NCBI RefSeq assembly: GCF_014644495.1
Contig: NZ_BMKU01000001.1
Coordinates: 124,001 to 188,000 of the forward strand
Length of the DNA stretch: 64,000 bases
Source of the DNA: Pseudarthrobacter polychromogenes
GTDB lineage: Bacteria > Actinomycetota > Actinomycetes > Actinomycetales > Micrococcaceae
Direction: 5' to 3'
The position numbers were made by a program, and so were the translations under genes. Within the stretch, counting starts at the first letter, position 1, and each line of letters begins with the position of its first letter. Positions 2,241 to 34,516 of this stretch are shown piece by piece. The notes under the pieces were generated by a model. That model ran no database searches. It was given only the letters and a program-made list of their open reading frames with translations, and had not been told where the DNA came from.

Positions 2241-2378
2241 ATGGGGATTCTCAAGCGCATAGGTCAGTGGTTCGACAGGCAGCTCCTGAAGCAGGATATG
2301 GACTTTCATTGCGAGCACCAGCCAGTCGGCGCATGCTCTGAGGCCTGCGAGGCACAAGTCCACGCCGAGCGCTGGTAA
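2241..2378 (+). CDS. Small leaderless protein, unknown function
   Basis: A 45-residue ORF directly downstream of a good promoter with no room for a 5' leader. It starts MGILKRIGQWFDRQLL, an amphipathic basic helix, and continues into a segment with three spaced Cys and several His (CEHQPVGACSEACEAQ), a possible metal site. Its stop shares one base with the next gene's start (TAATG), so the two are probably co-translated. Function unknown. Confidence 0.5.
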   Translation: MGILKRIGQWFDRQLLKQDMDFHCEHQPVGACSEACEAQVHAERW

Positions 2379-2575
2379 TGATCATGAAAGATGTTCGGCC
2401 TGACACGCACGGGCGGGCTAAGAGGGCTGCTGCCGGCCTCCTAGGAAGCCTGCTTCTAATCGTCGGCCTTCTCATGTGGGAGTCGAGGGGTGCGTTTTTC
2501 CCCGAGGCCACAGCCCTGTCAGTTATCGGAGCGGTGATCTTTTCATACGGGGCGTTCAAGGATTCGCCCTCTTGA
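2378..2575 (+). CDS. Small two-TM membrane protein
   Basis: 65 residues; ATG overlaps the previous stop by one base. A basic N-terminus is followed by two hydrophobic helices (about 18-34 and 42-58) separated by a short loop, so it is an integral membrane hairpin. Its TGA overlaps the TTG start of the next gene. Being translationally coupled to an O-antigen-ligase-like protein, it may act as its small partner; that is inference. Confidence 0.6.
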   Translation: MIMKDVRPDTHGRAKRAAAGLLGSLLLIVGLLMWESRGAFFPEATALSVIGAVIFSYGAFKDSPS

Positions 2576-3906
2576 TAGTCGTCGCTGCGGGGGTTCTCAG
2601 TGCCGTATTCCTTGGAGCAGTCGCTCTTCACCATCCGAAGTATCTTGCGCCGATCTTCCTAGCCGTGGGCTTGCTGGCATGCCGACCATCAGCGGTTGGT
2701 GAGCGGTGGCCTTGGCTTGGTCCCGCGATAGTACTCATAGGCGCAGCGCTGACGCTGCTGACACCCAAGGATGATGAGCCAGCGCGGCGGATTCCAGCAT
2801 GGCCGGGCGTGGTGTTCTTTGCGGGCTACGTTTGGTTGATCTTACGGGAATCCCTTGTGGGTGACGATGCCTTTAGCTTGGTGTCCTCGTCAGTATCGGT
2901 GTTCCTGCCTGTCCTCGCTTTCCTCCTTGCGGCAAGGAACTTGGAGGTTCAGCGCAAGACCTCAAATGTTTTCGTGTGGATCATTACCGCGTCTTCCGCG
3001 TCCGTGGTTGTCAGCATGGCACTGGGCCTCATTGTGGGGTACGGCGCGTTGCGGCTGGGAGCACTACCCATCGGGTATGAGCGGCTAGGCTCGGGGCTGA
3101 TGTTCCCCTTCTCGCTCACCTACGGCAACAGTTCTGATGGGGTCACCCGATTCCTTGGGCTTGGGCGAGAACCTGGCATGGGCGCTATCTTCATCGGCTA
3201 TGCATTCTTCGCCATGCCCGCCGTAAAGCGCGCAATACTCTACCGAGGCGTCCTCTTGGTCGCCCTCATGGGCACACTCTCAACAGCCGGCATTGGGTTG
3301 TTCGCTGTGGCTCTCGGCCTCTACTTTGTATTCGGCAGCAAGAAGCGCAATCTGATTGTCCGCGCCGCCGCGATTGGTGCGAGTGTGTGGGCCATCAATG
3401 TAGCGCTCTACGACACTCGCTTCGGCTTTCTCAGCAAAATCGAAACGGTCTCTAACCTAGACAGAACCAGGGCCACCACCGCCGGTATCGAAGCATTCTT
3501 CAATAACCCTTTCCTCGCAACCACGAACATGCCGCTATCCTCGATCAACATGGTGGCCGGCATTGCCCTAACGGGCGCCCCGTGGTTCCTTCTCATGCTG
3601 GCCTATATGGCGTCCCCTGTCCTGCATGGTGGGATGCGGCGGTGGCAAACCTATGCGGGCGGGTTCATCCTTGTCACTATGCTGACTTCCCAGCCTCTCT
3701 ACGGATCGACATCTGTCATGATTCTGGTGATCATGCTGCTCTCATCGATCCGTAGAGACGTGCCGACCTTAGGAGGGGATATGGATCCAGTCACGGGTGG
3801 CCGTGCGGCGGAAACCTATCCGGACCGACGTGTTGTCGGCGGAAAGCGTGGCAATGGTGTTAAATCCTCGCCGGGCTTGTTGGCACCGCAACGCCTCCAA
3901 CGTTGA
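2572..3906 (+). CDS. O-antigen-ligase/polymerase-like membrane protein
   Basis: About 444 residues with roughly ten to twelve hydrophobic segments. The stretch around [18 protein letters not shown] and [20 protein letters not shown] resembles the Wzy_C/O-antigen ligase core; family members join or polymerise glycans at the outer face of the membrane. Start chosen is TTG 2572, overlapping the previous TGA and preceded by AAGGA at 2558-2562; an in-frame ATG at 2476 would lie inside the upstream gene. The 3' end overlaps the convergent tail gene by 47 bases. In a prophage, such a protein could alter surface polysaccharide or block superinfection (inference). Confidence 0.7.
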
Positions 3907-5779
3907 TGTATTCACGCCGGTCGGTTACGTTCCTCACTGCTTCCGCGACCTTCGGCGCAAGGGTTCGGGTGCTTGAGTAACCGGTCGGGTGAACACCATC
4001 TAGCGCATCCCCAGCCGTCCACCACCCGGCAGTGTCAACGTAGCGGACCCGCGCCGAACCTGCCGCCGAAACCGCCGCCTGGAGCGGTGCGGCCTGACGG
4101 CCTGAGAACGGACGCAGGACGACTATCTGCGTGGTGATTGGGGTTGCCGCGAGAAGCCCATTGATGACGGTCGCCGCTTCTGTGGTGACAGCCGGAACGT
4201 CCGTCGATCCGTCGTTGTGGCCCAGGCTGATGATGATGATGTCTGGGACCACCGTGAAGGGCCGCGCCTGCCCGCTCCACAAGGATGTGTAGGAGCTTGC
4301 GAGCTTGGGGACGCCGCCCTGCCCGCTCACGGTCCAGCCCGTACCGCCGAAGCCCACACAGCCGACCTCTGCGCCCAGTAGCCCGCCGAGCTGGTACGCC
4401 CAGCCCACGGACGAGTCGGAGCCGTCCGGGGTTGTGACGTTCAGGAGGTTCTTGTACCCCTCCACGATGCTGTCCCCGAACACCAGCGCCACCTTGGACG
4501 CTTTGCTGGTTGCCTTGAGGGAGGCTGCCGTTTCGCCCGTCGCTTCCACTCCTGTCAGTGAGACGTGGGCGTTCTGCGGGCTCCACCGTGGCACGAACTC
4601 CGATGTGGACATGACGACTAGTTCAACCGTGTGTTCCGGCCATGCGTTGGTTGTTGGCAGCGTGAGGATGACTTCGGATGCGAGTGTTGCCCGCTGCCAC
4701 CCGCCGTCATCCACCCGGTACTTGAGGATCGGGAGAGGCGAAGAAACTCCGGCCATGTCGAACGTGAGCTTGACCTTTGCGGGGCTGCCCGCGACGGCGA
4801 AGCGCAGATATGCGCCGGGGTTGATGGTCTTAGCCCGGACGCTGCTGACATCCCAATTCTCGGGGCTGTAAACAAGACTGGCGTTGTTGGGGGCGAAAAC
4901 TACGGTTGCGCCGACATTGGGGACGCCTGAGACTTCCGCCGAGGCTGCTGACTTGTTGCCGGTACTGTCTACGGCCTTCACCGCGTAGTAGTAGGTGTTC
5001 GGGCTTGACACGGCGGAATCAAGGTACTGGGTCTGACCTGCCGCGGTGGTGCCGATGGGTGTGGTCAGCGGTACGGGCGATGATGTTGCCCGGAACACTT
5101 CGTAGGAGGGGCTGCCGGAACTGTCCGTCGATGTCGTCCACGAAACCAGGAGGGTGCCGGGTCCGGGCGCGGTGGCAAGTCCAGTTGGCACGGTCGGGGG
5201 CGTAGTGTCGGGTACTTCGTCAGAGCCCGAGTTCTCAAGGTGGAACAGTGCGGTAGTGTTCGCGTCAACTTCGAACGCTGTTGCTGAGGGCGTGAACGCT
5301 GCCGTGTAGCGAACGTTGTTGCTGAACCGCACTTCATCAATGGAACCAACCCACGGATACGTTGCGGCGATGCCGTAGTGCCCGATCCGCGTTGACGCAG
5401 AGAAGGCAAAGGCTGACGTGTGGGTGCTGGTTGCCGCGCTCACGCCGTCTACCCACAGTGTGTAAACGGTCCCTGACACTGTCAGTGCGAGATGGTGCCA
5501 CAGCCCGTCATTAATCGGGACCGTGCTGCTGACCGCGAGCCCGGGGCGTCCGAACGCTGCCTTGCCGGTATTGTCCTTGCCCAGCCAGAGCTGGCTGCCA
5601 CTGTTGCCAACTGCAACGCTAATTGCCCCGGAGTGGGTGGTGTTGACCCAAGCTTCAAGGGTTCCGGCAGGCGACGATACGTCGCCGCCGATCTGGAGCA
5701 CCCCGCCTGTGAGGCCGTACCCGATCTTGGCGAGCCCGTAGGTGGTTGCGTTGATGACCGTTGCGTCATGGGCTCCCAT
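3860..5779 (-). CDS. Tail-tip protein with LamG, FN3 and SGNH hydrolase domains
   Basis: 639 residues. An N-terminal LamG/concanavalin-like fold (about 25-185) is followed by a fibronectin type III domain (about 195-290; starts [11 protein letters not shown]), a beta-rich module (about 290-420) and an SGNH/GDSL esterase (about 425-625) with block I FGDSIVEG, block III-like LGHND and block V DGVHPTGY. The likely role is a receptor-binding or depolymerising tail tip that de-acylates surface glycans. It is the last gene of the leftward tail operon and starts at the stop of the previous gene. Confidence 0.8.
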
Positions 5780-6380: not shown

Positions 6381-6389
6381 GCCGGCCTC

Positions 6390-10076: not shown

Positions 10077-10084
10077 GGGGCCTC

Positions 10085-12229: not shown

Positions 12230-14093
12230 TCACCCCTTCCTAATGAAACGCGACTGGCCGTCCGCCGTGGCAATAGCCCCCGCAGCTTCCTGCCGGGCGA
12301 CACCACGGAAGGTTGCCCACGTGGCGTCGGCGTTGAGTTCAAGCCGGCCAACGAGTTCCAGCGGACCACCCTGCCCGCCCCCTGCAGAAACGGCCGTTTG
12401 GCTGTACCCGCTGAAGGACTGGACCTGCCCATACCCGCCAGCCATGGACTTCGACGGCGCGGAGTACTGGCCCGCGAATACGTCGTCCAAGTTCAGGCCG
12501 TCATTGACTGCCCGCAGCCAGTGATCATTCCGCTTGGATTGCGGCTCGTTGATAATCCACTCGCCGGAACGGATGTTGTAGGGAGATCCGTTCTGCGTTA
12601 CTGCCCGGATGTTGTCCACATAAGGGTTGCGAGGCGGGACCCCTGGGACCTTTCCGCCGCCGGCGAACCCGACCAACCCGCCCATGTACCGATCGGAACC
12701 GTACAGGCCGCCGCCTTCAGGCTCCCCGCCGTCAGCCAGCCGCACGCGCTGCTCATAGTTGATGCGGTGCGTCTCTTCGCGGATCGCAATCAGGACATCC
12801 TTACGCGAGGGGATTCCTTCGACGGCGCCCTTGACGTTCTGCGCCTTGGCCATGGTGTCGGCGTAGTTCTGGATCGCCGTCTCGATAGGCACGTTCTTCG
12901 GGATCGACAGGGCCGACCTTGCCAGGTCGTCTGCTTTCTCCTCGGACGCACCGAAGGCCCGGGCCGTGTCGTACAGGGACTTGTAGGTATTGCCGAGCTT
13001 GACGCCCAGCTCGTCCTGCGTCGCCCCGTTGTTCGCCATCGCCTGGGTGGTGGCGATCGCTTTCTGTGCGACATCCCCAAAAACGGCGCTTGCACCCCGC
13101 CCGGCCGCCGACGTTAGATCGAAGGAGCCGGTAGCGGCATCGAGCACCGCGTTCCCGGCGGACTGTGAGGCGTTGACCTCGTCGATCTTGACCTTCAGCC
13201 CATCCAGAGCCTCCTGGTAAGCCGACTCGGCGTCACGCGCCGAGAGGGTGGCAAGGCCCGTCTGGAACATGATGTCCAGCAGCTTGGAGAGCGACACGAC
13301 TGTACCGTCCGCTGCGAGGCCCATGTCCTCGAGCTTCTTGGCAGCCTCTTCCGAGACCTGTGCCTGGTAGGCCTCGGCAGCAGCAGCACCCTCTGTCGTG
13401 GACTGGATCTCCTGCATACGCGGAGGGATCTTGCCCAGCGCCAGTTGGTGCAGTTCCTCACTCGTCAGCTTCAGCCCAAGGGCCGTGCCCTGCCGCTTTA
13501 GCTCCTCGGTGTACTGCGGCATCAGCTTCAGCATCTGCTCTGTCGACAGGCCAGTTTTGCCCTGCGCCTCGGCGGACTTGTTCGCTTCATCCGTGAGGAT
13601 CTTGAACGACTCGCCCGCCTTCTGCGCTCCGCCGTTCTGCACCAAGGACACAAGGGTGTTGTCAAGGCCTTTGACGCTGTCCCGGAACTGCTGCGTCCTA
13701 GAGGTGCCGCCAACCATGTCGCCGGCCCAGTTGTTCAGATTGTCGTACCAGTTGAACTCGTTCACCCGGACCAGCGCGTCACCAACGCCGTTGATCTGAG
13801 TGCCGAGCCCGCCTGTGTTCCGCACGACATCGTCAAGGTCTGAGGTCGACATTTTCAGAGTGAGGAACGCCTGAGCATAGTCCTCAACGCTCTTTCTGTC
13901 CCCCTCCCAGATCTTGGAGATCGCTCCGGCAACCTGCAGCGCAACAAGCCCACCAGCTGCTATGGTCGCGGCCTTACCGACCTTGCCGAGCCCGCCCGCG
14001 AGCTTGGGTGAGGACTCCGCGAGTTCATCGAAGGCCCGCTTCGTCTCAAGGACCTTCGGGAACGTAGTCAGGAAGGCGCCGCCAACCAGGGCG
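12230..14093 (-). pseudogene. Tape measure protein, C-terminal part (frameshifted)
   Basis: This frame stays open up to about 14190 but has no start codon before ATG 13852. Between 14093 and 13852 it reads a plausible tape-measure continuation (LVGGAFLTTFPKVLETKRAF, then AGGLVALQVAGAISKIWEGD). The rest is alanine/glutamine-rich helix, typical of tape measures, and the C-terminus ends in SRFIRKG. It must continue the N-terminal part at 14068-15330 by a shift near 14091-14096. Translation from ATG 13852 alone would give a 540-residue fragment. Confidence 0.75.
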
Positions 14094-15330
14094 CGCCGCC
14101 AGCTGTGGCCGTCAGGCCTAGCCCCGTCTGCAGTAGAGGGGCAGGAATCTGGCCGATCGAGTCCAGCAGCGCGTCCGCACTCTGGGCGAGCGAGCGGAGT
14201 ACCTCGTTCGCTCCGGACCCCGACTTGAGGAACACGGAGTCCAGGGACCCGCCTACCTTTTCAATGTCCCCGGCAAGGTTGTCCTGCTTGATTGCTGCGG
14301 TAGTGGCCGCGTATCCGGAGTCGTTGACCTTGGCGGTCCAGTCCGCGATGCCCTTAGCGCCCTGCTCGTACAGGACGTTGGCGGCGCGGACAGCGTCGGA
14401 CCCGAAAATGATCTTCATCGACGCGTTGCGCTGCTCGTCGGTCAGGCCCTTCATGGAGTTCTGGAGGACCCCGGCAAACTTGGACAAGCCAATGAACTTG
14501 CCCTGCTGGTCGTATGCGGAGATGCCCAGCTTGTTCATCTCCGCCGCTGCCTCTTTCGAGTTCGGCGTCAGGGCCATCAGCATGGTCTTGAAAGAGGTAC
14601 CTGCATCGGAGCCGATGAGCCCGGCTGAGGCGAACGCAGACAACCCGCCCGTGGTTTCCTCGATGGACAAACCTGTCGAGGCGGCGATCAGGCCGCCCTG
14701 CTTCAGAGCGTTCCCGAGATCTTCCACTGAGCCCTGGGCTTTGCCCGCACCGGCGGCCAGGAGGTCCGCGAGATGGGGGATCTGGTCGCCCTTGAGCTTG
14801 AACTGGACCATGGCCGTGGCAGCCAGCTCAGCGGCGTCAGCCACCTCGATGGACCCGGCAGCGGCCAGCGACAGGGAACCGGCCAGGCCGCCGCCGAGAA
14901 TGTCCTTCGTGGAGACGCCAGCCTTAGACAGCTCCGTGATGGCGTCAGCGGCTTCGCGTGCCGAGTAGGACGTATCGGCGCCGGCCTTGATCGCCGCGGC
15001 GCGCAGCTGTTCCATGTCCCCGGCGGATGCGTGCGTGGCTGCCTGGACTTCGGACATGGCTTTGTCGAAGTCCATGTAGGACTTGATGGCAAGACCAACG
15101 CCGATTCCGACAGCGGCGCCGAAGCCGAGTAGGGCCCCGCCGGACTTGGTCCAGGCTTCTTCGTGCCGGTTCGCGGACTGCACCATCTGGCCGAGTGCAC
15201 TGGTCGACTTCCCGGCCGTCTCGGTCGCGGTCTTCCCGACCTGTTCCGTGACCTTGGAGGCCTCCTGCATCTGCTTCCGGAACTCACCAATTTCGGCGCG
15301 GATCCGGACAACTACGGAGCGTTCAGCCAC
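14068..15330 (-). pseudogene. Tape measure protein, N-terminal part (frameshifted)
   Basis: About 420 residues from GTG 15330, preceded by GGAGGG with five bases spacing. The N-terminus (ERSVVVRIRAEIGEFRKQM) and the region MDFDKAMSEVQAATHASAGD are typical of TP901-type tape measures, which set tail length. The frame ends at 14068 with the out-of-frame tail APWLAAPS; the natural continuation lies in the -1 frame. A whole gene would encode about 1030 residues. A 1-bp loss or 2-bp GC gain in the tract GGCGGCGCGCCC (near 14091-14097) explains it. Confidence 0.8.
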
Positions 15331-15371
15331 GGCGACCCTCCATCTTGATTCAGTTGTGGTTTGATGCAGGG

Positions 15372-15566
15372 ATGACTGCACAGACTAAGAAGCCCGGGGA
15401 CGCTCTTATCGGATGGGGCGCGATGATCGCCATCCTTGGCGTGGTTATTTACTTCATCGCACTCGTGTCAGGAGGCGCCGGGAACCCGTTTCTGGCGTTC
15501 GCGATGGTGGTGGTCGGGATCCTGCTCGCGATCCTCGGCTACGTGAAGAAGAACGCGAACCGCTAG
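15372..15566 (+). CDS. Small two-TM membrane protein in a tail-module slot
   Basis: 64 residues from ATG 15372 (GCAGGG upstream). It has two hydrophobic helices (about 14-33 and 38-56) and basic ends. It is on the strand opposite to the entire tail operon, starts 41 bases from the divergent tape-measure start, and its TAG shares the palindrome CTAG with the stop of the convergent GT gene. Candidate lysogen-expressed moron; function unknown. Confidence 0.65.
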   Translation: MTAQTKKPGDALIGWGAMIAILGVVIYFIALVSGGAGNPFLAFAMVVVGILLAILGYVKKNANR

Positions 15567-21828: not shown

Positions 21829-21851
21829 TGACAGCCTCCTAAAATGGGTGT

Positions 21852-22019
21852 GTGGGCCTTGACGACCGGAACGACAGTGCGGGCGTGCCTGGGGAGTGCC
21901 CCGGGCACGACTGGAAGGTCCACGGGATTTATCTGCGGTCGACGGGCGGATCGATGTCCGTGGCGTGTAAGTGGTGCGGTGCCGTGCAGTACGAGCCGTC
22001 CCTCAGCGACGGGACCTAA
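21852..22019 (+). CDS. Small Zn-ribbon-like protein in a head-module slot
   Basis: 55 residues from GTG 21852. It has ECPGHDW and later CKWCGAVQ, a plausible metal-binding C-H...CxxC set, within a compact hydrophilic protein. It is rightward among leftward head genes: its start is 23 bases from the divergent protease start and its TAA overlaps the TAG of the MuF-like gene (CTAA). A longer overlapping frame from 21844 has no protein-like features. Confidence 0.55.
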   Translation: MGLDDRNDSAGVPGECPGHDWKVHGIYLRSTGGSMSVACKWCGAVQYEPSLSDGT

Positions 22020-23059
22020 GCGGCGAGATCCTTGACGGGCGTGGCGGTGTAGGAGTCCCGCCAGCCGGCCGTGGCCTTCTTGGTGGACAGGTCCGCCCAG
22101 GAGATCTCACCGGACTGCAGCAGCTCCAGCCGTTTCGGGCCCATGATGTCGCGCTGCGTTTCCGGGGTGAGGTTGTTGAACACTGCCTGCGCGTCCTGTG
22201 TCAGAGAGGGTGGTTCCTCGATGTCGAAGCCGAGGTCCTTCCACGACTTGGTGATGGTGACGCGGGCGCAGCGGCCGTTCTGGTGATCGTTGGGCCCGTC
22301 CTGGTCGAGCGGGTAGCGGGTGCCGTGCTTGGCCCAGCAAGAGGGGCAAGTGCGGGCGGTGAGAGAGGCGTGCCATTCCCACCCTTCGAGAATGGTCTTG
22401 TTCGCCTTCTCGGAAGCCTTTGTGGCTGCCCGGTGCGCGTCGAGGGTCTCGGTGCGGGCGATGGTGAGCGCCCGGGTGAGTCCGCCGTTGAACCGCTGCT
22501 CTGTTTGCTGCAGCATCCGCCGAGCAGTTGCCCTTGGGTTCTCACCGACGGCGATGCCGCGGATGAGTTCCCGCTTCATGACCCGTTCCACGTCAGCCGG
22601 CAGGGGCTTGGTCGCGGAGTGGATCTGCTCGGTGGTGCGTTCTACGATGGCGGCCAGGGCCTCCGGAGACATCCGGGTGAAGCTGACCGATGCGCCCGCC
22701 GTGTTGGGTGGGAGTTGGGAGCCGATGAGCGCCTCATGCCCGTCCAGCGCGTCGAGGACCGCGGTGCCGACGTCGTTGGTGATGACCCCATCCGTGGTGC
22801 GGGCCAGCTCGTTGAGCATGATCCGCGCCTGCTGCAGCGCATCCCTCAGCCGGATGTTTTTCGCCGCAACAGCCCGGGACACTTTCCCGTCAGCAGCCCC
22901 CGCCAGGAGCTCCACGAAAGCCGTCTCGAACTCCGGCTCCAGCACGTCCCACGCCTCCACCCACGCCCGGGTGAGAGCGAGGGTCTGGGCGTCGGTCATC
23001 CTGTCGAGGTCGGCGCGGAGGCGGTCAACGATGCGGAGAGTCTCAGCCGTGACCGCCAT
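22016..23059 (-). CDS. MuF-like minor head protein
   Basis: 347 residues. The C-terminal half carries the Mu protein F signature: LTIARTETLDAHRAA, then TARTCPSCWAKHGTRYPLD and HQNGRCARV, with Cys/His that may bind metal. The N-terminal half is helical. Encoded directly after portal with GGGAGG in the 9-base gap. Such proteins help in head assembly or are injected with the DNA. Confidence 0.85.
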   Translation of the reverse strand: MAVTAETLRIVDRLRADLDRMTDAQTLALTRAWVEAWDVLEPEFETAFVELLAGAADGKVSRAVAAKNIRLRDALQQARIMLNELARTTDGVITNDVGTAVLDALDGHEALIGSQLPPNTAGASVSFTRMSPEALAAIVERTTEQIHSATKPLPADVERVMKRELIRGIAVGENPRATARRMLQQTEQRFNGGLTRALTIARTETLDAHRAATKASEKANKTILEGWEWHASLTARTCPSCWAKHGTRYPLDQDGPNDHQNGRCARVTITKSWKDLGFDIEEPPSLTQDAQAVFNNLTPETQRDIMGPKRLELLQSGEISWADLSTKKATAGWRDSYTATPVKDLAA

Positions 23060-23068: not shown

Positions 23069-24598
23069 CTACTTCAGTGCTGCTGCCGGGTCCTGCCCGT
23101 CCCGGAATGCCTTGGTGGCCACATCCCCGGCGGTTGTGTCGGTGTCGAGGAGGTTGCCGTCGTCGTCGGTGATCTTCTCGATCCATTCGTCGACGTCCGG
23201 GATCTTGAGGACCTGCAGCGCCAGGCGGATCAGCGGCAGCTTGGGCACGTCGGGCATGCCGTCCGCGGCGACGATCGCGTCGATGAGGACCTTCACGTCG
23301 ACCTCGTCCAGGCCCGGGAAGGTTACTTCCACGGTCGCTGCGGCCGGATCGGTGAACTCGACCTTGAGGCGGTCGTCGTCCCGGACTGCGGTGCCGAGCC
23401 TGCGGAGCGGGCCCTGCGGCGCGATGACGGCCTGTTCGATGGCGTACCCGACACTGTCGCGGATGACTTCGGCGTGGAGCTGCTGCCGTGCCTGAAACGT
23501 CAGCCTCGTGGGGAGGTCGAGCGTCTCGGCGGTGGCGCGTGCACCGGTCTGCCCCGGGTCGGCCAGGGCGATCGTGACGGGGATGCCCATCGCGGTCGCT
23601 GCCATGGTCGCCAGCGGCCTCGACGATTCCGAATCCAGAGTCGCGCCGGACTTCGGCATCGCCTCGATCTTCTGATCATCCGACATGCTGACAGAGGAAC
23701 CGGCCGGCACATTCGCGAGGCCTTGCAGCGCGGCGCGCTTCGACTGCGACGCGGCCGCCGTCTTCGAGGAGGACACGAAGGCGATCTTCGCCAGCGCCTT
23801 CATCAGCAGCGCCCAGTCCTCCAGGAAGCCCTTGTGAGACAGAGCCCAGGGGATCGCGGCGTAGGAGTCGCCGATGCCGAACTTCCAGTTCTGCGAGGCG
23901 TTGACCTTCACGTGCCGCACGGGGGCATCCCAGAGCACGGGGACACTGTCGATGCGGAGCGTCTTCATGCGGGGCTGGTACTTCAGCGCAGGGTAGTACG
24001 CCTTCATCTGGGCGTCTTTACCGTCCGCGCCCTGCTCCACCCATTGCCGCAGGTAGAACCACGGGGTGGCCTTGTCCCCGGGCGCGGTGATGACGTCCTG
24101 GATCTCGTCGAAAGGGATGGTCCGGACTTTCACCCGGCCCGTTAGAGGATTCGTGAAGTGGGTGAGGAAGAAATTGCCCTCATCGAACAGGGTGCCCTCG
24201 TATTGCTGCCGGGCCTGCGCGCCGAAGAAAGCTTCCCGGTTGCCCTCATCATCGATGAACGCCTGCACCACATCGTTGACATCCTGGTCGACGGCTGCGA
24301 TGGTGACACCCTGCCCCCACACGTACGCGTGGCGGACCTCCCGTCCGCGCTTGATGATCGGGTTCGCGATGCCGAACAGGCGGCCCATCTCCGCGGCCTT
24401 GATCAGACCGTCACGGCTGAACTCCTGCTGGTACTGCTCGCTGAGCTTCATCCAGCCGGTGTTCTCGCGGGCGAGCTCCAGCTGCGCGAGCGATTCCTCG
24501 AGGCGGTACTGCAGCGTCGCCACAGTGCCCTCAGCGATCTTCCCCTCAGCAGTCGTGGCTGCCTCTTGCAGGCCCAGCAGTTGGCGGAACATGCCCAT
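23069..24598 (-). CDS. Portal protein
   Basis: 509 residues between terminase and MuF-like protein. Typical features: an N-terminal coiled coil, LFGIANPIIKRGREVRHAYVWG, a wing region, then a long helical stem/crown with LADPGQTGARATAETLDLPT. It forms the ring through which DNA is packaged. AGGAGG lies five bases before the start. Confidence 0.85.
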   Translation of the reverse strand: MGMFRQLLGLQEAATTAEGKIAEGTVATLQYRLEESLAQLELARENTGWMKLSEQYQQEFSRDGLIKAAEMGRLFGIANPIIKRGREVRHAYVWGQGVTIAAVDQDVNDVVQAFIDDEGNREAFFGAQARQQYEGTLFDEGNFFLTHFTNPLTGRVKVRTIPFDEIQDVITAPGDKATPWFYLRQWVEQGADGKDAQMKAYYPALKYQPRMKTLRIDSVPVLWDAPVRHVKVNASQNWKFGIGDSYAAIPWALSHKGFLEDWALLMKALAKIAFVSSSKTAAASQSKRAALQGLANVPAGSSVSMSDDQKIEAMPKSGATLDSESSRPLATMAATAMGIPVTIALADPGQTGARATAETLDLPTRLTFQARQQLHAEVIRDSVGYAIEQAVIAPQGPLRRLGTAVRDDDRLKVEFTDPAAATVEVTFPGLDEVDVKVLIDAIVAADGMPDVPKLPLIRLALQVLKIPDVDEWIEKITDDDGNLLDTDTTAGDVATKAFRDGQDPAAALK

Positions 24599-24607: not shown

Positions 24608-26104
24608 CTAGACCGGGCTGATCGACCAGCCCTGTGCGTTGTACTCGTCGTAGACGTCGGGTTCGATGAGCCGGCCCTGGTTCAGCAGCGGCATGAGCAG
24701 GAGCCGGTTGATGGCCTGCGATAGTGCGTCGATGGTGTCGTCGTGGGCGCTGTTGGGGAAGTTCTTGGCTTCCTCGACGAGCTCCTCGACGTTGGGCAGC
24801 AGCTCCGGGTCCGGCAGGACGATGTTCCGCGACTCGGCCAGCGGGGAGATGGCTGAGGCCCTGGCGTACTTGGACCCTTCCGGCTCGATGGGGATGAGCC
24901 CGAAGATGCGTTGCTGCAGCGCGTTGATGACCGCGGGCCCGTTGGCTTTGTCCTCGACCAGCTTCGCGAGCGACTGCGGCCACTTCTTGGACATCGCCTC
25001 GATCGCGTTGCACGTGGCGGTGAAGTTCAGGCGCGCCCTCACCATGTCCAACAGGTAGGCGTTGACGCCGATGCGGAGCCACACCTGACCGACGACGTAG
25101 TCGGAGGATTTGGTGTCCTTGAACGCGAGGTCCCACGACTGGATGAGTTCGTGGTCGTCGCGGCCGATGCCGGGCACGTGCATGACGCCGTTGCCTTGGT
25201 CGATCCAGAGCGGCTGCGAGTACCGCGCCCATTCGGCGGGGAACACGCCACCGGATTCGGGGGAGGGGCGGCCCTGGTACAGGCTCGCCCAGGTGCGGGC
25301 TCCGGCCGTCGCTTTACGCATGAGCCACTGCTTGAGCGTGCGGCCACGGGCGGAGACCATGAACTCGCCCGGCTTACGGCCGAGCGGGTCCGTCTCGCCC
25401 TTTTCGGGGCGGTGGTCAGCCTGGGCGGGGATGTTGAGGATCTTCCAGCCGGCTTCTTTGTCCCGCTCCATGAGGCGGCCTGCGAGGTCGTCCTGGTGCC
25501 AACGGGTGAGGATGACGATCACCGGCGCACCGGGCGCGAGGCGGGCGCTGGCGGCGTCTGTCCACCAGTCCCACACGTTGTCCCGGTACGTTTCGGAGTC
25601 CGCTTCTTTGCGGTCCTTGATCGGGTCGTCAATGATCATCATGTCCGCGGGGCGGCCGGTCACACCAGCACCGATACCCACGGAGAGGACGCCGCCCTGG
25701 TGGCCTTCGAGGGTCCACTCGTGCACAGCGCCGTTGTCGTTGGCGATGCGGAGATCGATCTCCGGGGTGGAGGTGATCCGGTTTCGGATGGCCCGGCCGT
25801 TGCGGTTGGCGAGGTTCTGAGCATACGAGGCGGTGACGATCCGGAGGTCCGGGTTCTGGGTGAGCGCCCAGATGGGGAAGTCGTTGGCCACCCGGACCGA
25901 CTTGCCCTCCTGCGGGGCCATGCAGACGATGAGGCGTGAGTCGGGGGTGTTGAATGCCTCGACGAGGGCCTTGTCGATCAGGTCGAGCGCGGGTGTCTGG
26001 ACGGTCTTCGGGTTGGTCGCCCGCGCCATCTCCCCGGGGGTTGCCCACTTGGCTTTGACCGGCTCGAACATGCGGGCCGCAGCTTCCCACATGTCCACGG
26101 TCAC
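24608..26104 (-). CDS. Terminase large subunit
   Basis: 498 residues from GTG 26104 (AAAGGGGG upstream). ATPase: deviant Walker A in MAPQEGKSVR (about residue 60) and Walker B DMMIIDDPI (about 155), then a coupling-like VIVILTRWHQDDL. Nuclease domain in the C-terminal half with SWDLAFKDTKSSDYVVG and later acidic residues (HDDTIDAL). It packages DNA into the procapsid and cuts it. A ten-base gap separates it from portal. Confidence 0.88.
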   Translation of the reverse strand: MTVDMWEAAARMFEPVKAKWATPGEMARATNPKTVQTPALDLIDKALVEAFNTPDSRLIVCMAPQEGKSVRVANDFPIWALTQNPDLRIVTASYAQNLANRNGRAIRNRITSTPEIDLRIANDNGAVHEWTLEGHQGGVLSVGIGAGVTGRPADMMIIDDPIKDRKEADSETYRDNVWDWWTDAASARLAPGAPVIVILTRWHQDDLAGRLMERDKEAGWKILNIPAQADHRPEKGETDPLGRKPGEFMVSARGRTLKQWLMRKATAGARTWASLYQGRPSPESGGVFPAEWARYSQPLWIDQGNGVMHVPGIGRDDHELIQSWDLAFKDTKSSDYVVGQVWLRIGVNAYLLDMVRARLNFTATCNAIEAMSKKWPQSLAKLVEDKANGPAVINALQQRIFGLIPIEPEGSKYARASAISPLAESRNIVLPDPELLPNVEELVEEAKNFPNSAHDDTIDALSQAINRLLLMPLLNQGRLIEPDVYDEYNAQGWSISPV

Positions 26105-27724: not shown

Positions 27725-28147
27725 ATGCAACCCATGGCGGACTTCATCGGGGAACTCTTCGGGCCCAGCTGGACTGCCCAGGGCGTCGCAGCTGTCATTT
27801 CTTCGGGCATTGCCCTGTTGGCTGTCGGCATTTCGTCTCGTGTTGCTTGGCGTCAGGGAGTCAAGACGAGGCAGCACGTGGACGAAGTCGACGCGAAGCA
27901 GGCGGAACGTGAGCGTGAATTCAAGGGCCGCGAACACTGGTGGGAACGATTTTCGTGGGCATGCGTTGAGTTCACAGCAGATGACGAAGACAGGATCAAA
28001 GTCGGCCTAATAGTTTTATCGGACCTCGCCACCTCTTCCTGGGCAAGTGAGGGCGATAAGCTATTAGTAGCGTCTGTATTGAAGGAGCTAGTTGACATCG
28101 CCGTGGAAGAAGGGGTGTATGACAGTGCGGAAGATGAAAGCCAATAA
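27725..28147 (+). CDS. Single-TM protein with cytosolic helical domain
   Basis: 140 residues (or 137 from ATG 27734). One membrane helix (about 18-40, AAVISSGIALLAVGISSRVAW), then a basic linker with charged coiled coil (KTRQHVDEVDAKQAEREREF) and a small acidic helical domain. Rightward, in a slot between leftward genes; followed by an overlapping second gene. Candidate lysogen-expressed exclusion or defence protein; no known family recognised. Confidence 0.6.
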   Translation: MQPMADFIGELFGPSWTAQGVAAVISSGIALLAVGISSRVAWRQGVKTRQHVDEVDAKQAEREREFKGREHWWERFSWACVEFTADDEDRIKVGLIVLSDLATSSWASEGDKLLVASVLKELVDIAVEEGVYDSAEDESQ

Positions 28148-28571
28148 TCCAATCGTCATCGAGGCGGCCAAGAACCGGGCACGGATCCTGGCGAGTCTAG
28201 GTCTTGTCGTGGATGAGAAGACGGCACGAATTGCTTCCCGTAAGACCGTTGAGCGGCCTCCTTCTGACTACACGGATACTGCCGCAAGCGATCTGCCGTT
28301 AGTGTCTGATGTACTAAAAGATGTCGTTCAGCAGGCTGCGCAGGAAGCCCCCTCTGAGTCCCAGCCGCGTTCCGGCAAGTTCGAACAGTTTGTCATCTAT
28401 TCCAAATATGGCGGGCACAAAATTAAGGCCCGGAGCGGCGATTACATTGTGCTGCGCGCCAAGGACCTTCTAGTCAGCAACGAGCCGACTCAGGCCAGCG
28501 CGGAAACAGATGGTAAGGAAGATGGCACGCCGAAGGACCCTACATATCGCGTCCGCCGGCCAAAGCCCTGA
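28119..28571 (+). CDS. Soluble protein paired with the TM protein, unknown
   Basis: 150 residues from ATG 28119, with AAGGGG five bases upstream; overlaps the previous gene by 29 bases and the convergent terminase small subunit by 32. Basic N-terminus, a middle region with VSDVLKDVVQQAAQE, then FEQFVIYSKYGGHKIKARSG and LRAKDLLV. The tight pairing suggests it acts with the preceding membrane protein. No domain recognised. Confidence 0.55.
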   Translation: MTVRKMKANNPIVIEAAKNRARILASLGLVVDEKTARIASRKTVERPPSDYTDTAASDLPLVSDVLKDVVQQAAQEAPSESQPRSGKFEQFVIYSKYGGHKIKARSGDYIVLRAKDLLVSNEPTQASAETDGKEDGTPKDPTYRVRRPKP

Positions 28572-29160: not shown

Positions 29161-29174
29161 CGCTTCTCACTTTC

Positions 29175-29750
29175 ATGGGGGTCGTAGTTCAAATGCAGGA
29201 CACCAAGTTTCTGACTGAGGAATGGTTTTGGGCGGCCGTCGCGGCGGTAGTGGGCAGTGCAGCGATCATCGGCGCGTTCTTTTCCTGGCTTACCGCCGTC
29301 ATCATCAGGCATCGTGAACAGCCCGAAGCTGACTGGGCGGTGATGATGCACGGCTATGCGACCGAGGAAGATGTACCTGGAGTGAATGAAGCTGGCGTCC
29401 ACCTCTCAGGGCGCATTTCGAATGCCGGTGACGGCGGAGCGTTCCGTGTGCGTCTCGAGTCCAGAAACTGTAAGGCTGGTTTCACGCCGGCTGACACGCA
29501 GGGGATGGTCGCCAAGTCCTTCATGCCGCCCGGGGCGGACCTGTCCTTCTGGATCGAGATGGACCTAGACAGCTGGAACGATGCGGAAGTCGACATCGTG
29601 TGGACGGCGCCGCCCACTAGGCTAAGGAAAGAGATGCGGTCACCCCTGAATCCGAAGGATTTCATGGATCCACCGGGGGTTCCTTTCACTGACCCGGACA
29701 CCGGCGTGGTCTCCGAACGACCCGTGACTACCTTGTCTGCGGGTAGTTAG
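29175..29750 (+). CDS. Single-TM protein with extracytoplasmic/cytosolic beta domain
   Basis: 191 residues from ATG 29175, 14 bases from the divergent small-terminase start (ATG 29193 is an alternative). One membrane helix (about 16-38, WFWAAVAAVVGSAAIIGAFF) is followed by a beta-rich, Ig-like region (HLSGRISNAGDGGAFRVRLE ... IEMDLDSWNDAEVDIVW). Rightward in a leftward region; same layout as the genes at 27725 and 33953. Function unknown. Confidence 0.6.
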   Translation: MGVVVQMQDTKFLTEEWFWAAVAAVVGSAAIIGAFFSWLTAVIIRHREQPEADWAVMMHGYATEEDVPGVNEAGVHLSGRISNAGDGGAFRVRLESRNCKAGFTPADTQGMVAKSFMPPGADLSFWIEMDLDSWNDAEVDIVWTAPPTRLRKEMRSPLNPKDFMDPPGVPFTDPDTGVVSERPVTTLSAGS

Positions 29751-30173: not shown

Positions 30174-30232
30174 CGGGCGGGGTGCGCGGGCGTCATCGGC
30201 GCCCGCGCATTCGTTTGCCTGGCCAAAACTGC

Positions 30233-30364: not shown

Positions 30365-30433
30365 CTTCGGGGCCCTTTCGATTAGGTGGAAACAGTCCTG
30401 TTCACTACGCGGATGGGTGGGTAACCTCTCCCT

Positions 30434-30607
30434 ATGAGTGAAGATGATCCGATAACCCCTGCTGATCTCGCCCGGGAGTTGGGCAAGAATCCGAAACGTA
30501 TCCGGGACTATCTGCGGGATCAGTACGGCACGCTGCCGCCGGATGAAACGCGCTGGTTCCCGACTCCTGAGCAAGTGGCTGATGTTCGCCGCCACTTCGG
30601 GGCTTGA
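30434..30607 (+). CDS. Small HTH DNA-binding protein
   Basis: 57 residues, ATG 30434. ITPADLARELGKNPKRIRDY followed by a short linker and TPEQVADVRRHFG form a compact helix-turn-helix resembling the DNA-binding domains of Lsr2-like and small phage regulators. It is rightward, alone, facing the leftward early operon; an AACAG-TC-CTGTT palindrome precedes it. A regulator or excisionase is possible. Confidence 0.6.
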   Translation: MSEDDPITPADLARELGKNPKRIRDYLRDQYGTLPPDETRWFPTPEQVADVRRHFGA

Positions 30608-30664
30608 TGGGCTGGTCCACGCGGAGCCGGCCGAACCACTCGATACGGGTCTCAGGCTGGGCGG

Positions 30665-30994: not shown

Positions 30995-31251
30995 GCGACG
31001 GCCTTGAGTGCGGCTTCGCATTCGCGGACCCGTTCACCAGCGACTTGCACACTGGCCCAGTCACCCCGACGCCCTACGGCTGCTTCCACGGCGCGGGTGT
31101 ATGCCGCGTCGGCCGCCTCCAGCGCGGTCGTGAGGCGTTTCCGTTCGTGGATCCGGGCGACGAGGGTTTCGCCTTCAGTGTCGGCGATCAGGCCCCGCAG
31201 CCTCACCTGGTCGGCGAGGCCCTGCACGATCTGGGTGTCATGCTCGGCCAT
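30991..31251 (-). CDS. Small helical protein, unknown
   Basis: 86 residues from ATG 31251 with AGGAGG eight bases upstream. Almost wholly helical and charged, predicted coiled coil (RIHERKRLTTALEAADAAYTR). No known family. Part of the leftward early operon. Confidence 0.6.
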   Translation of the reverse strand: MAEHDTQIVQGLADQVRLRGLIADTEGETLVARIHERKRLTTALEAADAAYTRAVEAAVGRRGDWASVQVAGERVRECEAALKAVA

Positions 31252-31280
31252 GGCGCCCACCTCCTGGAGTTCCCCGGCCG

Positions 31281-31415
31281 TCACTGGCCGGCCTCCACAA
31301 GGTACGCGCCGCGGATCTGGGCGATCTGGTTGAGGGCCTCGTTGGTGGTGATGTTGCCGAGGTAGAAGGTCTCCATCACGTTCCCGATCCTGTCCATGGC
31401 TTCCTCGGCGGTCAC
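31281..31415 (-). CDS. Very small phage protein
   Basis: 44 residues from GTG 31415, whose GTGA overlaps the upstream stop. Sequence includes METFYLGNITTNEALNQIAQ, a regular helix. Overlap geometry and codon-like composition support it; function unknown. Confidence 0.5.
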   Translation of the reverse strand: MTAEEAMDRIGNVMETFYLGNITTNEALNQIAQIRGAYLVEAGQ

Positions 31416-31717
31416 TTGGCGGTCTCGACGATCTCAGCGACGCGGTATTCCCAGTGGATACCGGCGGTCTTGCAGTCGTCGCTCCACTCGTCGGCGAACG
31501 CCTGGGCTGATTCGCGGTGCTTGTGCTGGTGACCGACCATGATCCCGCCACGGTCCACGACGATGTAGCCAATGACCTTGGGCTTGCGGTAGCCGAGGCT
31601 CTGAAGGTGGTGGGCGAGCGGGCCGGCGAGGTCCACGTCGGGGCCTCCCGTGACGGGGGCTTTGCGGATGTCGTCCGCAATAGCTTCGGTGGTTCTGGTC
31701 CGAGTCTGAGTACTCAT
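31412..31717 (-). CDS. Early-operon protein, unknown
   Basis: 101 residues; AAAGGA nine bases upstream of the ATG. An alpha/beta protein with VIGYIVVDRGGIMVGHQHKHRE and a C-terminal strand (YRVAEIVETAK). It is the first gene of the unit that begins downstream of the operator dyad at 31814. Confidence 0.6.
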   Translation of the reverse strand: MSTQTRTRTTEAIADDIRKAPVTGGPDVDLAGPLAHHLQSLGYRKPKVIGYIVVDRGGIMVGHQHKHRESAQAFADEWSDDCKTAGIHWEYRVAEIVETAK

Positions 31718-31813
31718 CGGGGTTTTTCCTTTTCGTGGTCCGGCTGGGATTGCAGTCCGCGTGGCCGGGGGTTTTCGGGTACCCCCAGCCTAGCAACTAT
31801 AGCTTGCAGTAGC

Positions 31814-31830
31814 AACAACTGTTAGTTGTT
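31814..31830. promoter_or_regulatory. 17-bp operator dyad with leftward promoter
   Basis: Perfect AACAACT-GTT-AGTTGTT. Read on the minus strand, a possible promoter CTAACA-N18-TATAGT overlaps it, reading toward the 31717 gene. The site also overlaps the stop codon of the upstream 31822 gene. Confidence 0.6.
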
Positions 31831-32193
31831 CAGGTGGTCGCGGGAAAGCGTGAGGAGCGCGACGAGGTCACCCATCGTCAGCGTCACCCACTGGTCCTCC
31901 GGCCGCCCCTTCCCGTGGCGTTTGTGAACCACCATCCCAGCGAGGGCGTCGTCGTTCCCGCGCTCCGTCTCAGCCTCACCAGCCCACGGGCCCAGCAGCG
32001 TCTTCGCCGCGTTCTTGCACTCGATCACCAGCCGGTGGCCGTGGTGGCGGAGCCCGGCAATGTCGCCCCGGTCCTTCGCCCCCGCCTTCACCCTGCGGTC
32101 GATCCTGTCGTCCACGTGCTCGGCGAGGTAGTCGGCCACCATCCGCTCGAACGACGTGCCGGCCTTCTTCGCTGATGCCCTGGTCCTGGTCAT
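31822..32193 (-). CDS. Holliday-junction-resolvase/PD-(D/E)XK-like nuclease
   Basis: 123 residues. SFERMVADYLAEH, KDRGDIAGLRHHGHRLVIECKN (Asp...Glu-x-Lys) and a C-terminal helix match the small restriction-endonuclease-like fold used by Hjc-like resolvases and VRR-type nucleases. It would process replication or recombination intermediates. Last gene of its unit. Confidence 0.7.
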   Translation of the reverse strand: MTRTRASAKKAGTSFERMVADYLAEHVDDRIDRRVKAGAKDRGDIAGLRHHGHRLVIECKNAAKTLLGPWAGEAETERGNDDALAGMVVHKRHGKGRPEDQWVTLTMGDLVALLTLSRDHLNN

Positions 32194-32405
32194 GTTCTTC
32201 TCCTCAGTTGGATCAAATCGTACTCGTGGCTTGTGCGCCTCAGAATCGTTCCTAAGCGCCTGTCAGAACCCGGGATGACCAATCACCCCGCCCCACCCCT
32301 TTCGGAGCGTCCTGGCCCTGCTGGCGGCTCGCTGGACTGGGTGCATGTCGGGGGTGCTGGATCGGGGGTGTTTGGTGGCCCCGTAGGGGAGGGTTTGGGT
32401 GGTGA
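32194..32405. other. Gene-free stretch between early genes
   Basis: About 210 bases, G/T-rich on the plus strand, without an ORF that looks coding. No hairpin or promoter stands out. Confidence 0.4.
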
Positions 32406-32849
32406 TCATGCTGCGGCCTTGTGGGTGCGGCGTTGCCTGTGTTGGCGGCGTTCTGCGATCGGGTCGTAGTTGATGTGGTTGATGCCGAGTTTGATGGCGC
32501 CTGTCGCGTAGGTTGGCGCGGTTTCGATGCTGCGGAGCACTGCGCGGTGTTCGCCTGCTTCGTGGTGGGTCCAGGCGGTGCGGGGGAAGTAGCGGCGGAT
32601 GGTTTCGGCGTCGGCGCCTTCGGTTGCGTGGATCTCTTTGTGTGACCAGCCGTCGTAGAGCATTTGCCAGATGGTGTGGAGGCGTTCCTCGGTCATTGGT
32701 CGGCCGCGGTAGGGGTGGCTGAGGCCGAGTTCTACGCGGATGCGGCGGATGCTGTCGGGGTGGCAGCCCAACTGCTCAGCGATGACCCGGGTCGTTACGC
32801 CTTGGGTGATGAGGCTGCGGACGTGGTCGCGGTCGATTCTGGCGTTCAT
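32406..32849 (-). CDS. Double HTH regulator-like protein
   Basis: 147 residues from ATG 32849 (ATGA overlap with upstream gene). Two helix-turn-helix units: RSLITQGVTTRVIAEQLG (residues ~12-40) and TIWQMLYDGWSHKEIHATEG (~60-95), then AETIRRYFPRTAWTHHEAGE. The second half resembles the 72-residue protein at 36074. Likely DNA-binding; role in replication or regulation unknown. Confidence 0.65.
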   Translation of the reverse strand: MNARIDRDHVRSLITQGVTTRVIAEQLGCHPDSIRRIRVELGLSHPYRGRPMTEERLHTIWQMLYDGWSHKEIHATEGADAETIRRYFPRTAWTHHEAGEHRAVLRSIETAPTYATGAIKLGINHINYDPIAERRQHRQRRTHKAAA

Positions 32850-33259
32850 GATGCTTGCTCCGTTTCTGGTTCGTGGTGTTTGCCGAGTGCGTGGTGTGGG
32901 CGTTGGCCGGTTTTGATTTCTGACCAGCAGCAGCGGCAGTTGTGGGCTTGTTCGCCGATGTGGTCCTTGCAGGGTGGCCCGGGTGGGATGTGGGCGCCGG
33001 ACTCCTGGACTGGCTGGTCCCAGTGCTTGCCGGGCTGGTAGATGACCGCTGGTGTGCGGGCGACTGGTGTGCCGTCCGGGTTCCGCCTCGTGGCTGCTGT
33101 GACTGCTGCCTGGGCGAGTTGGGGGAACGTTCCGGGGTGGTCGCGGTTCCGGCCGATGAGGGTCATGAGTGCCGGGGTTCCCCATTCGGGCCGGAGCTGG
33201 TGGAGGATGCCTGCCAACGCTTCGGCTTGGGGTTTTGTGATGGGCTGATGGTCAGTCAA
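32846..33259 (-). CDS. Phage protein, unknown, with Cys cluster
   Basis: 137 residues: helical N-terminus (KPQAEALAGILHQLRPEWGT) and a C-terminal Cys/His region (CKDHIGEQAHNCRCCW) that may bind zinc. It follows the replication-like gene and precedes the HTH protein. Function unknown. Confidence 0.6.
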   Translation of the reverse strand: MTDHQPITKPQAEALAGILHQLRPEWGTPALMTLIGRNRDHPGTFPQLAQAAVTAATRRNPDGTPVARTPAVIYQPGKHWDQPVQESGAHIPPGPPCKDHIGEQAHNCRCCWSEIKTGQRPHHALGKHHEPETEQAS

Positions 33260-33280
33260 GTGTTCTGCTCCTCACGCGTT

Positions 33281-33377
33281 ACCTAAGTGACGATTGACTG
33301 ATTTCTTTAGCCGGATCTCTTTGAAACTGTTGTTGAAACAGAAGGTGAGATAGGCACTTAGGTGAGTAGTTAAGTGT
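33281..33377. promoter_or_regulatory. Inverted-repeat cluster upstream of 33259 gene
   Basis: ACCTAAGTG (33281-33289) and CACTTAGGT (33355-33363) are exact reverse complements; TTAAGTG follows at 33371. This 189-base AT-rich gap (33260-33448) likely holds the promoter of the 33259-32406 unit under a regulator with a CACTTA half-site. Confidence 0.45.
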
Positions 33378-33448
33378 TTATGTTTATGGTGCTAATGCTT
33401 TGCTAACCGTTTGCTATAGCAGGTGCTATGGCAGCTGCTAAGCGTTTG

Positions 33449-33838
33449 CTACCCGGTTTGGCAGTGGTGGCAGCCGGGGTCTGTGACGCCTTTCTTCTTG
33501 TGGTGGCGGACGTGAGCCCCGAACGCGCCGGCCTCTGCCTTGTTCGCCTGGTACGTCTCGATCTGCACCCTGGAGTGCTGGTGTGCGAGGTAGTCGTGCA
33601 GTTCGTATGTGCCGTCCTCCAGCGCCGTCACGAGCCCTGCCTCGATGAGTTCCTTCCCGGCCTTGGGCCCCCTGTTATTCAGTTCGAGCTTGGTGAATTT
33701 CCCGTCTGATCTGGCGTCGTTGCAGTCCGCTATCAGCTCCACGTGCAACCGGAAGGCCCGGTCACTGAGGGCCCTGATCTTCCGGTGTCTGGGGTATTCG
33801 TTGGTGAGCGTGAAATACGGCCTCGTGTCCTTGGCCAC
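33449..33838 (-). CDS. Replication-initiator-like winged-helix protein
   Basis: 129 residues from GTG 33838 (AAAGGA seven bases upstream). PYFTLTNEYPRHRKIRALSDRAF and KELIEAGLVTALEDGTYELHDYLAHQ resemble the N-terminal DNA-binding domain of phage replication/replisome-organiser proteins. The end carries a Cys/His pair (DPGCHHCQTG). Family assignment tentative. Confidence 0.55.
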   Translation of the reverse strand: MAKDTRPYFTLTNEYPRHRKIRALSDRAFRLHVELIADCNDARSDGKFTKLELNNRGPKAGKELIEAGLVTALEDGTYELHDYLAHQHSRVQIETYQANKAEAGAFGAHVRHHKKKGVTDPGCHHCQTG

Positions 33839-33940
33839 GGCTCTTTCCTTTCTGGTGGCGCCAGAACCAGCAGCACTCGCTGCGAACAAGCGCTGCTGGT
33901 TCCTGAGGGCATGGCTAAGCAGCTCTAATTTAACTGGCTA

Positions 33941-33946
33941 TATGAT
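33941..33946 (+). promoter_or_regulatory. -10 box of a leaderless gene
   Basis: TATGAT (within TATATGAT) ends six bases before ATG 33953, the same spacing as at 2229-2241. No ribosome site or good -35 box is present, fitting a leaderless transcript. Confidence 0.4.
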
Positions 33947-33952
33947 TCGAAA

Positions 33953-34516
33953 ATGCTATGGGGAATAGCGCCTGAGTCTTGGGCCCAGTTGTGGAGTGGC
34001 GTCATCGGCTCATTCGTGGCGGCAATAATCGGCGGCTTGGTAGCGCTTTGGGTCGTTCGCCTGACGAACGGGCAGCAGAAACAGCACGCCTCTGATGCAC
34101 GGCAGATAGCAGCTATCGCAGATCTGCTGGCGGCGGTCTCAGCCATGGAAAAGAAGTATGGGGATGGGCCTGTCGCCATCCAAGATCTTTTGTTGGTGGT
34201 CCAGGCGGCTGCGATTCGCTGGGTGATCGAGGCAGACGATGAGAAGCTTTCAGGCGAGCTAGCCCACTGGCCGTACCACATGGGGACTCTGGCTTTGAAG
34301 ACGCATGCGAACTTTGACAGCGACAAGAGAGAGACGTACTTGACGTGGCTTTTCAATGCTGGAAGCGACCTTACTTTGTGCGGTATGGCTTGGCCGAAGG
34401 GAACTCCGTCTACTCGTGACGCCCACGTGTTGCTGCTGACCGTCCGTCGAACGGAGAGGGTGGCCGCCATGAAAGCACTTGAGGAAGTGGAATCTGCCAA
34501 GACCGAGACTGGGTAG
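33953..34516 (+). CDS. Single-TM moron-like protein
   Basis: 187 residues. One membrane helix (about 15-36, SGVIGSFVAAIIGGLVALWVV) and a helical soluble domain (SDARQIAAIADLLAAVSAMEKK ... HMGTLALKTHANFDSDKRET). It is rightward, apparently AT-richer than its neighbours, and ends 4 bases before the end of the convergent methyltransferase. Same architecture as 27725 and 29175. The opposite-strand reading there lacks protein-like features. Confidence 0.6.
   Translation: MLWGIAPESWAQLWSGVIGSFVAAIIGGLVALWVVRLTNGQQKQHASDARQIAAIADLLAAVSAMEKKYGDGPVAIQDLLLVVQAAAIRWVIEADDEKLSGELAHWPYHMGTLALKTHANFDSDKRETYLTWLFNAGSDLTLCGMAWPKGTPSTRDAHVLLLTVRRTERVAAMKALEEVESAKTETG

Follow-up and report, generated by a model that had tools for sequence, protein, structure and literature searches.

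A 64,000-nucleotide stretch of Pseudarthrobacter polychromogenes DNA (contig NZ_BMKU01000001.1, positions 124,001 to 188,000; hereafter the window) contains an Arthrobacter-type, Triplejayvirus-like temperate prophage, kin of phages TripleJ and Kukla. The lytic genes of this prophage run leftward; seven rightward units lie between them and are therefore antisense to the lytic operons. These units are probably autonomous leaderless morons which occupy recurrent slots in the lytic operons of this temperate lineage. Morons are already known; the leaderless starts and the presence of several slots would make these a new variant.

All seven units listed in a preliminary description of this DNA are present as open frames (Table 1); they are referred to here as slots A (2241-3906), B (15372), C (21852) and D1 to D4 (27725, 29175, 30434 and 33953). 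The overlaps of stop codons with convergent genes are exactly as described (15563-15566, 22016-22019, 28540-28571 and 3860-3906), and leave little room for a unit to have its own terminator. Starts had been placed 14-50 bases from the divergent gene; this holds for three of six units (42, 23 and 14 bases), while the other three lie further away (115, 69 and 63 bases). Coding was assessed from codon statistics, as a log-likelihood ratio (LLR) relative to the other five frames. In six of the seven units the main gene has a clearly positive score. Slot D3 is without codon support, as is the first of the three open reading frames (ORFs) of slot A, which is called from its promoter and place. D1 contains two ORFs.

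A TANNNT element some 12 bp ahead of the start is described as a mark of leaderless genes in Actinobacteria (PMC3160421), and Mycobacterium tuberculosis promoters are described as TANNNT with no conserved -35 (PMC3898074). In five of the seven window units TANNNT stands exactly 6 nt ahead of the start codon and there is no Shine-Dalgarno motif; these five thus have the published leaderless geometry (first T some 12 nt upstream of the start, no Shine-Dalgarno motif). Because this geometry is host-type and published for Actinobacteria, the units look readable by host polymerase alone. The signal is missing at inner operon genes and at genes 42442-43994. The binomial probability of five in seven is about 2e-9 at the lytic-gene rate and 0.002 at the host first-gene rate. 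No -35 consensus was found among 33 leaderless starts, which were selected for TANNNT-N6.

Since the pattern was first noticed on the seven window units, the relatives are the independent test. Among 22 related phages, prophages and contigs, TANNNT at spacing 5-7 precedes 22 of 45 antisense first genes but only 7 of 724 genes on the lytic strand; with the four rows of the window removed, the antisense count is 21 of 41. Left out of this comparison were G040C10 and G133C31 (misread by the codon model), V043 (same region as G248), and G375, G063 and G176C3 (no anchor in the terminase gene terL). The spacing profile of the antisense first genes peaks at 6 (13/45) and 7 (7/45), with at most 3/45 at any other spacing; lytic genes have no such peak. 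Antisense frames not covered by lytic genes were also scanned in 37 genomes and contigs (L186 and L187 omitted as duplicates; the near-identical phages L188 and G176C7, and L198 and G204C3, retained). The structural block gave 35 matches at N6/7 against 3-15 at other spacings, and the region upstream of terL gave 27 against 7-18. A 400-kb part of the host genome, with 331 called genes, has the hexamer at N6 in 33 genes, at N7 in 15, and at other spacings in 0-7. Several in-frame starts per gene were allowed in these scans, alike for antisense, lytic and host genes. The surrounding lytic genes look to be of a different start type from the rightward units.

It should be noted that several observations weigh against the leaderless moron reading. 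No signal at spacing 5-7 is found at 23 of the 45 antisense first genes, and several terL-adjacent antisense genes (G380, G432, G042) have Shine-Dalgarno motifs instead. Within the window, slot B has TTTGAT-N6-ATG, one mismatch away from TANNNT, and D2 has no clear leaderless signal at 29175 or 29193. Slot C homologs in MinS1 and MT835568 are without the signal on inspection, and phage D_HF5_3, which appears temperate given that RecT and an antirepressor are annotated in it, has no slot C. Many rows are related to one another, and the P-values overstate independence. As regards function, profile searches returned no exclusion or defence family match of weight; among defence families (PADLOC-DB 2.0.0, 8 proteins) no match was convincing, and one weak match was seen, 30434 to mad1 (E 0.0053).

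Slot C appears from its distribution to be a near-fixed lineage-core gene of the temperate members. It encodes a small zinc-ribbon protein, and its orthologs are found at the same place and on the same strand, between the MuF and protease genes. In temperate relatives the gene is antisense, mostly 48-60 amino acids (aa) in length, with the pattern C-x2-H ... C-x2-C. The four Cys/His residues are invariant in 18 aligned sequences (G042, G416, G050, G375, Kukla and TripleJ were left out of the alignment); in G042 a Cys replaces the His of the zinc motif. The ratio of non-synonymous to synonymous substitution rates (dN/dS) between the window gene and ten orthologs is 0.04-0.37. In the host-family genome set, the frame is present in 17 of 17 prophages having both anchors. 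Searching IMG/VR at the protein level yielded 40 loci, 33 of them unique; the gene is antisense in slot C in 33/33 and has the signal in 30/33. It is absent from Montesquieu and LuckyBarnes, which are virulent and lytic according to their authors' accounts (PMC9331655, PMC6588365). There the flanking genes are contiguous, 19 and 23 bp apart, as expected if slot C is an insertion. It is also absent from the Montesquieu-like contig L193, and was not found in V041 (gap 11), V040, V042/L190 or L202. This distribution is suggestive of a link between slot C and temperate life. The idea that the slot C -10 element arises only because the opposite strand carries the Shine-Dalgarno motif of the protease gene was considered and rejected: a TANNNT-type hexamer is found there in 14 of 303 GGAGG sense genes, a set which still included the slot C protease genes. 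The AlphaFold model has three strands and low confidence (predicted local distance difference test score, pLDDT, 57.8). TripleJ gp4 (L003), a slot C gene, is annotated as '3-oxoacyl-ACP reductase', which is unfit for a 55-residue zinc-ribbon protein. In BIM BV-113 (L105), slot C (23959-24123) and an antisense gene for a protein with two transmembrane (TM) segments (about 27.6-27.8 kb) are both unannotated.

Slots had been expected to be variable among relatives. Slots A and D are; in slot B the place and topology are kept and the sequence is divergent, and slot C does not follow the expectation. Antisense counterparts of slot B (64-84 aa) are found in the window, Kukla, TripleJ, G072, G116, G204 and G076. 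All seven proteins have two hydrophobic segments, with pairwise identities of 21-51%; the strict signal (spacing 5-7) is present in three of the seven genes (TripleJ, G072, G116). In G075 and BV113 a different two-TM protein is encoded nearer the beginning of the tail operon instead, and its gene has the signal. In LuckyBarnes the chaperone and tape measure genes are neighbours, and in Montesquieu they almost are, as expected of a moron insertion at slot B. For the rightward units in general, Kukla (gp4, gp16) and TripleJ (gp4, gp17) have annotated genes at matching positions.

Slot A and its counterparts appear to carry surface-glycan-type enzymes. The third slot A frame, read as 2476-3903, missed the cut-off of Wzy_C (PF04932, O-antigen ligase/polymerase) with 24.9 vs 31.7 bits (E 2e-5). 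Slot A of Kukla contains an acyltransferase (PF01757), and G050 has an antisense rhamnosyltransferase-like gene (PF11316) 20-21.6 kb from terL. Kukla gp34 and TripleJ gp35 are the first genes of slot A cassettes; both have TANNNT-N6-GTG.

The D slots lie on the upstream side of terL, where the antisense genes differ among relatives. Such genes have the signal in G416, G075, G116, G050, BV113, L184 and L200, and lack it in G432 and G042; in G380 it is found only at an inner start codon. The layout proposed for the 27725, 29175 and 33953 proteins, an N-terminal TM segment followed by a soluble domain, agrees with hydropathy; the 33953 protein has an additional hydrophobic stretch at residues 74-92. 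No homology among the three was found, no dedicated pairwise comparison having been made. The 33953 family is present in 18 of 390 host-family genomes. TANNNT at N6 or N7 precedes 11 of 12 loci examined (the window's included), and several of these loci are single genes between opposite-strand genes. Five IMG/VR contigs also carry the family, all with the signal, although only two distinct ones are new. Its AlphaFold model is helical (pLDDT 65.9), and Foldseek found no match to it in PDB at E <= 0.001. Proteins similar in appearance to D2, as judged by eye, are found in G204 and G116; a tblastn search of phage records with 29175 gave as its sole match Bifidobacterium phage PMBT6 (two records, 29.5%), and the same search with 27725, 28119 and 33953 gave nothing at E 0.01. 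Searches of PHROGs, Pfam and PADLOC left the small proteins of the units without a clear function. A further slot, empty in the window, is seen 16-18.6 kb downstream of the terL start in G432C1, G416C2, G075C1, G106C14 and G176C7; it contains a signal-peptide or lipoprotein-like antisense gene, with the signal in 5/5.

The second gene of D1 is unusual. Close to its C-terminus, the 28119-28571 protein has about 30 residues that resemble the C-terminus of host GroES, at 45-53% identity in many of the genomes with a match; the N-terminal part aligns poorly, and a protein containing a piece of GroES is odd for a prophage. The GroES-like match is found in 85 of 390 genomes, and the Pfam Cpn10 match is weak.

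The preliminary description had read the units as a distributed lysogen-expressed set, and this now has good support: host-type leaderless promoters are predicted in most units and are rare in lytic genes, the same is seen in related prophages, and the structural block of both virulent relatives is free of such antisense genes. A promoter of its own, as is characteristic of a moron, can be predicted for five of the seven units and in relatives. The host-readable -10 element would be placed so that transcription starts at the start codon and yields a leaderless mRNA; the leaderless start would then permit expression while the prophage is quiescent and the lytic programme is off. Such expression is a well-supported prediction from these promoters. 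Less firmly, most units may counter superinfection from the membrane or cell surface; slot A might change the surface glycans, and the D genes would encode effectors anchored in the membrane. Slot C would be a lineage-core zinc-ribbon protein. A wider reading, which we hold only tentatively and consider somewhat doubtful, is a dispersed lysogeny programme in which fixed slots of the head, tail and pre-terminase operons take single-gene antisense leaderless cassettes, exchangeable one gene at a time without touching the repressor circuitry; its anchor would be the near-universal antisense CCHC microprotein, absent from virulent relatives, as a new lysogeny-specific factor rather than an accessory gene. 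The combination of several slots, the leaderless rule and a near-universal antisense zinc-ribbon gene was not found in the open-access literature, which is weak evidence of absence. If the moron reading is right, an antisense gene in a lytic operon with TANNNT-N6/7-start marks lysogen-expressed actinophage genes without RNA-seq, and yields a list of candidate superinfection-exclusion genes. Slot C raises the question of what role an antisense zinc-ribbon gene between head genes, missing in virulent relatives, has in lysogeny.

HK97 gp15 is a membrane protein whose gene lies among the tail genes. It has one predicted membrane helix, whereas slot B proteins have two, and the likeness concerns place and membrane nature only; gp15 presumably sits between the tail chaperone and tape measure genes, the same place as slot B. 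Exclusion by gp15 and by Ltp is described as being escaped through changes in the tape measure region (PMC10883804). On the basis of the gp15 location and this escape route, slot B might block genome entry at the membrane via the incoming tape measure protein, tuned to tape measure type. Ltp of TP-J34 is similar in that prophage-encoded exclusion proteins act at the membrane, in the accounts of PMC3952083 and PMC10883804. Close to their tail genes, the window's relatives have antisense genes for lipoprotein-like proteins, likened to Ltp by description only, but no lipoprotein-like gene was called in that region of the window. TP-J34 is described as transcribing in one direction except for its lysogeny module (PMC3952083). 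The tail assembly blocker Tab of Pseudomonas phage JBD26, as presented in PMC10884400, is constitutively expressed in the prophage from its own promoter and counted as a moron. Like the window units, it is a small minus-strand gene inside the late operon with its own promoter. Tab differs in lying between the small and large terminase genes, in having an anti-Tab partner, and in having the tape measure protein as a proven target; the window has several slots and leaderless starts, and any function or partner of its units is putative. The analogy with Tab, HK97 gp15 and Ltp, together with the surface-glycan enzymes of slot A, makes a role in superinfection exclusion or defence plausible. Lysogenic expression is also described for actinophage genes: Gordonia phage CarolAnn 43/44, which adjoin the repressor (PMC6426606), and gene 90 of Adephagia, which lies at the right end of the genome and has a predicted leaderless transcript (PMC11373665). 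In contrast to both, the window units are spread through the head, tail and pre-terminase genes.

The antisense promoters might be more important than the proteins. Transcription against the lytic operons in the lysogen would then reduce leaky expression of late genes, through interference or antisense RNA, and the ORFs would be secondary. The antisense orientation of the units, their overlaps with gene ends, and the fixed place and strand of slot C are all in keeping with this idea. However, the slot C protein is under purifying selection with invariant Cys/His residues, and the other slots change content or stand empty, which would be superfluous for a pure promoter role; this explanation is unlikely. 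Some units, slot C above all, could instead be lytic or virion-assembly genes (a head factor, for example) which face backwards and have an incidental leaderless start. Slot C always lies between two head genes and is missing from temperate-looking D_HF5_3, as such a function would allow, but the virulent relatives have the same head genes without slot C, and lytic genes almost never have this start type; we regard a virion-assembly role as improbable.

A third explanation is that most of the rightward ORFs are antisense frames which arose by chance. Spurious ORFs are numerous in GC-rich DNA (287 ORFs of at least 50 aa overlap the first 40 kb), and the two frames without codon support may be of this kind. 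The codon scores of the main genes, the slot C dN/dS of under 0.4, the genes annotated at the same places in Kukla and TripleJ and the precise start geometry argue against it, and it is very unlikely overall; as an account of the units as mainly antisense artefacts it was rejected on the codon scores, the start geometry and the slot C dN/dS. The leaderless moron reading is thus preferred.

DNA identity of the prophage to TripleJ (Triplejayvirus) and Kukla is 78-79%, over pieces which make up 32-35% of the first 25 kb; TerL shows 82% protein identity in the comparison with these relatives. The terminase gene heads the structural run. The rightward genes at the right end occupy the place of Kukla's repressor region. 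No exact repeat of at least 12 bp that might be an attachment site was found between 1-2300 and 45100-46100.

Table 1. Coordinates of the rightward units and of other prophage genes in the window (+, rightward; LLR, codon log-likelihood ratio).
Feature	Position	Strand	Details
Slot A, ORF 1: 45 aa, Cys/His rich	2241-2378	+	TATACT-N6-ATG; LLR -0.8
Slot A, ORF 2: 65 aa, one hydrophobic segment	2378-2575	+	LLR 8.4
Slot A, ORF 3: membrane protein, weakly Wzy_C-like	start 2476 or 2665, end 3906	+	LLR 59.3 (2665-3906)
Slot B: two-TM protein, 64 aa	15372-15566	+	LLR 17.7; lies between the genes for tail assembly chaperone and tape measure
Slot C: CCHC zinc-ribbon protein, 55 aa	21852-22019	+	LLR 6.3
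Slot C: predicted -10 element	21840-21845, start 21852	+	TAAAAT-N6-GTG
Slot D1, gene 1: N-terminal TM (18-36) and soluble region, 140 aa	27725-28147	+	TAACAT-N6-ATG; LLR 14.9
Slot D1, gene 2: GroES C-terminal stretch in last third	start 28092 or 28119, end 28571	+	LLR 24.3 (from 28092)
Slot D2: N-terminal TM and soluble domain	29175-29750, likely start 29193	+	LLR 24.0
Slot D3: 57 aa, weakly helix-turn-helix-like	30434-30607	+	TAACCT-N6-ATG; LLR -0.5; weak Pfam and PADLOC matches
Slot D4: membrane-anchored helical protein, 187 aa	33953-34516	+	TATGAT-N6-ATG; LLR 24.5
Terminase	24608-26104	leftward	
MuF	22016-23059	leftward	PF04233
Portal, protease, capsid, tail and tape measure genes	after terminase, down to ~3860	leftward	likeness to Kukla/TripleJ genes
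Integrase	43994-45142	rightward	right end; PF00589, E 1e-19

The tape measure region (12230-15381) is split: likeness to the TripleJ/Kukla tape measure is found in two frames, with a junction near 14090. This indicates either a tail-defective prophage or an assembly error.

Among the relatives, MuF matches without the full region retrieved were G011, G165, G280, G014 and G324, weak G026, G438, G429, G445 and a second G102 locus. G063C1, G176C3 and G375C4 (L059, L060 and L048) are MuF relatives in which tblastn finds none of the other syntenic head genes; in G063, MuF is followed by a stretch resembling the tape measure N-terminus. MinS1 (L107, MZ923504.1) is labelled a Microcystis phage. Its TerL is 59.6% identical to that of the window, and it encodes an Lsr2 family protein as well as a slot C gene; the host label may be wrong, as the phage looks actinobacterial. 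Directly left of the prophage in the window, at 343-1866, is a protein with GmrSD_C, SLH and Excalibur domains.

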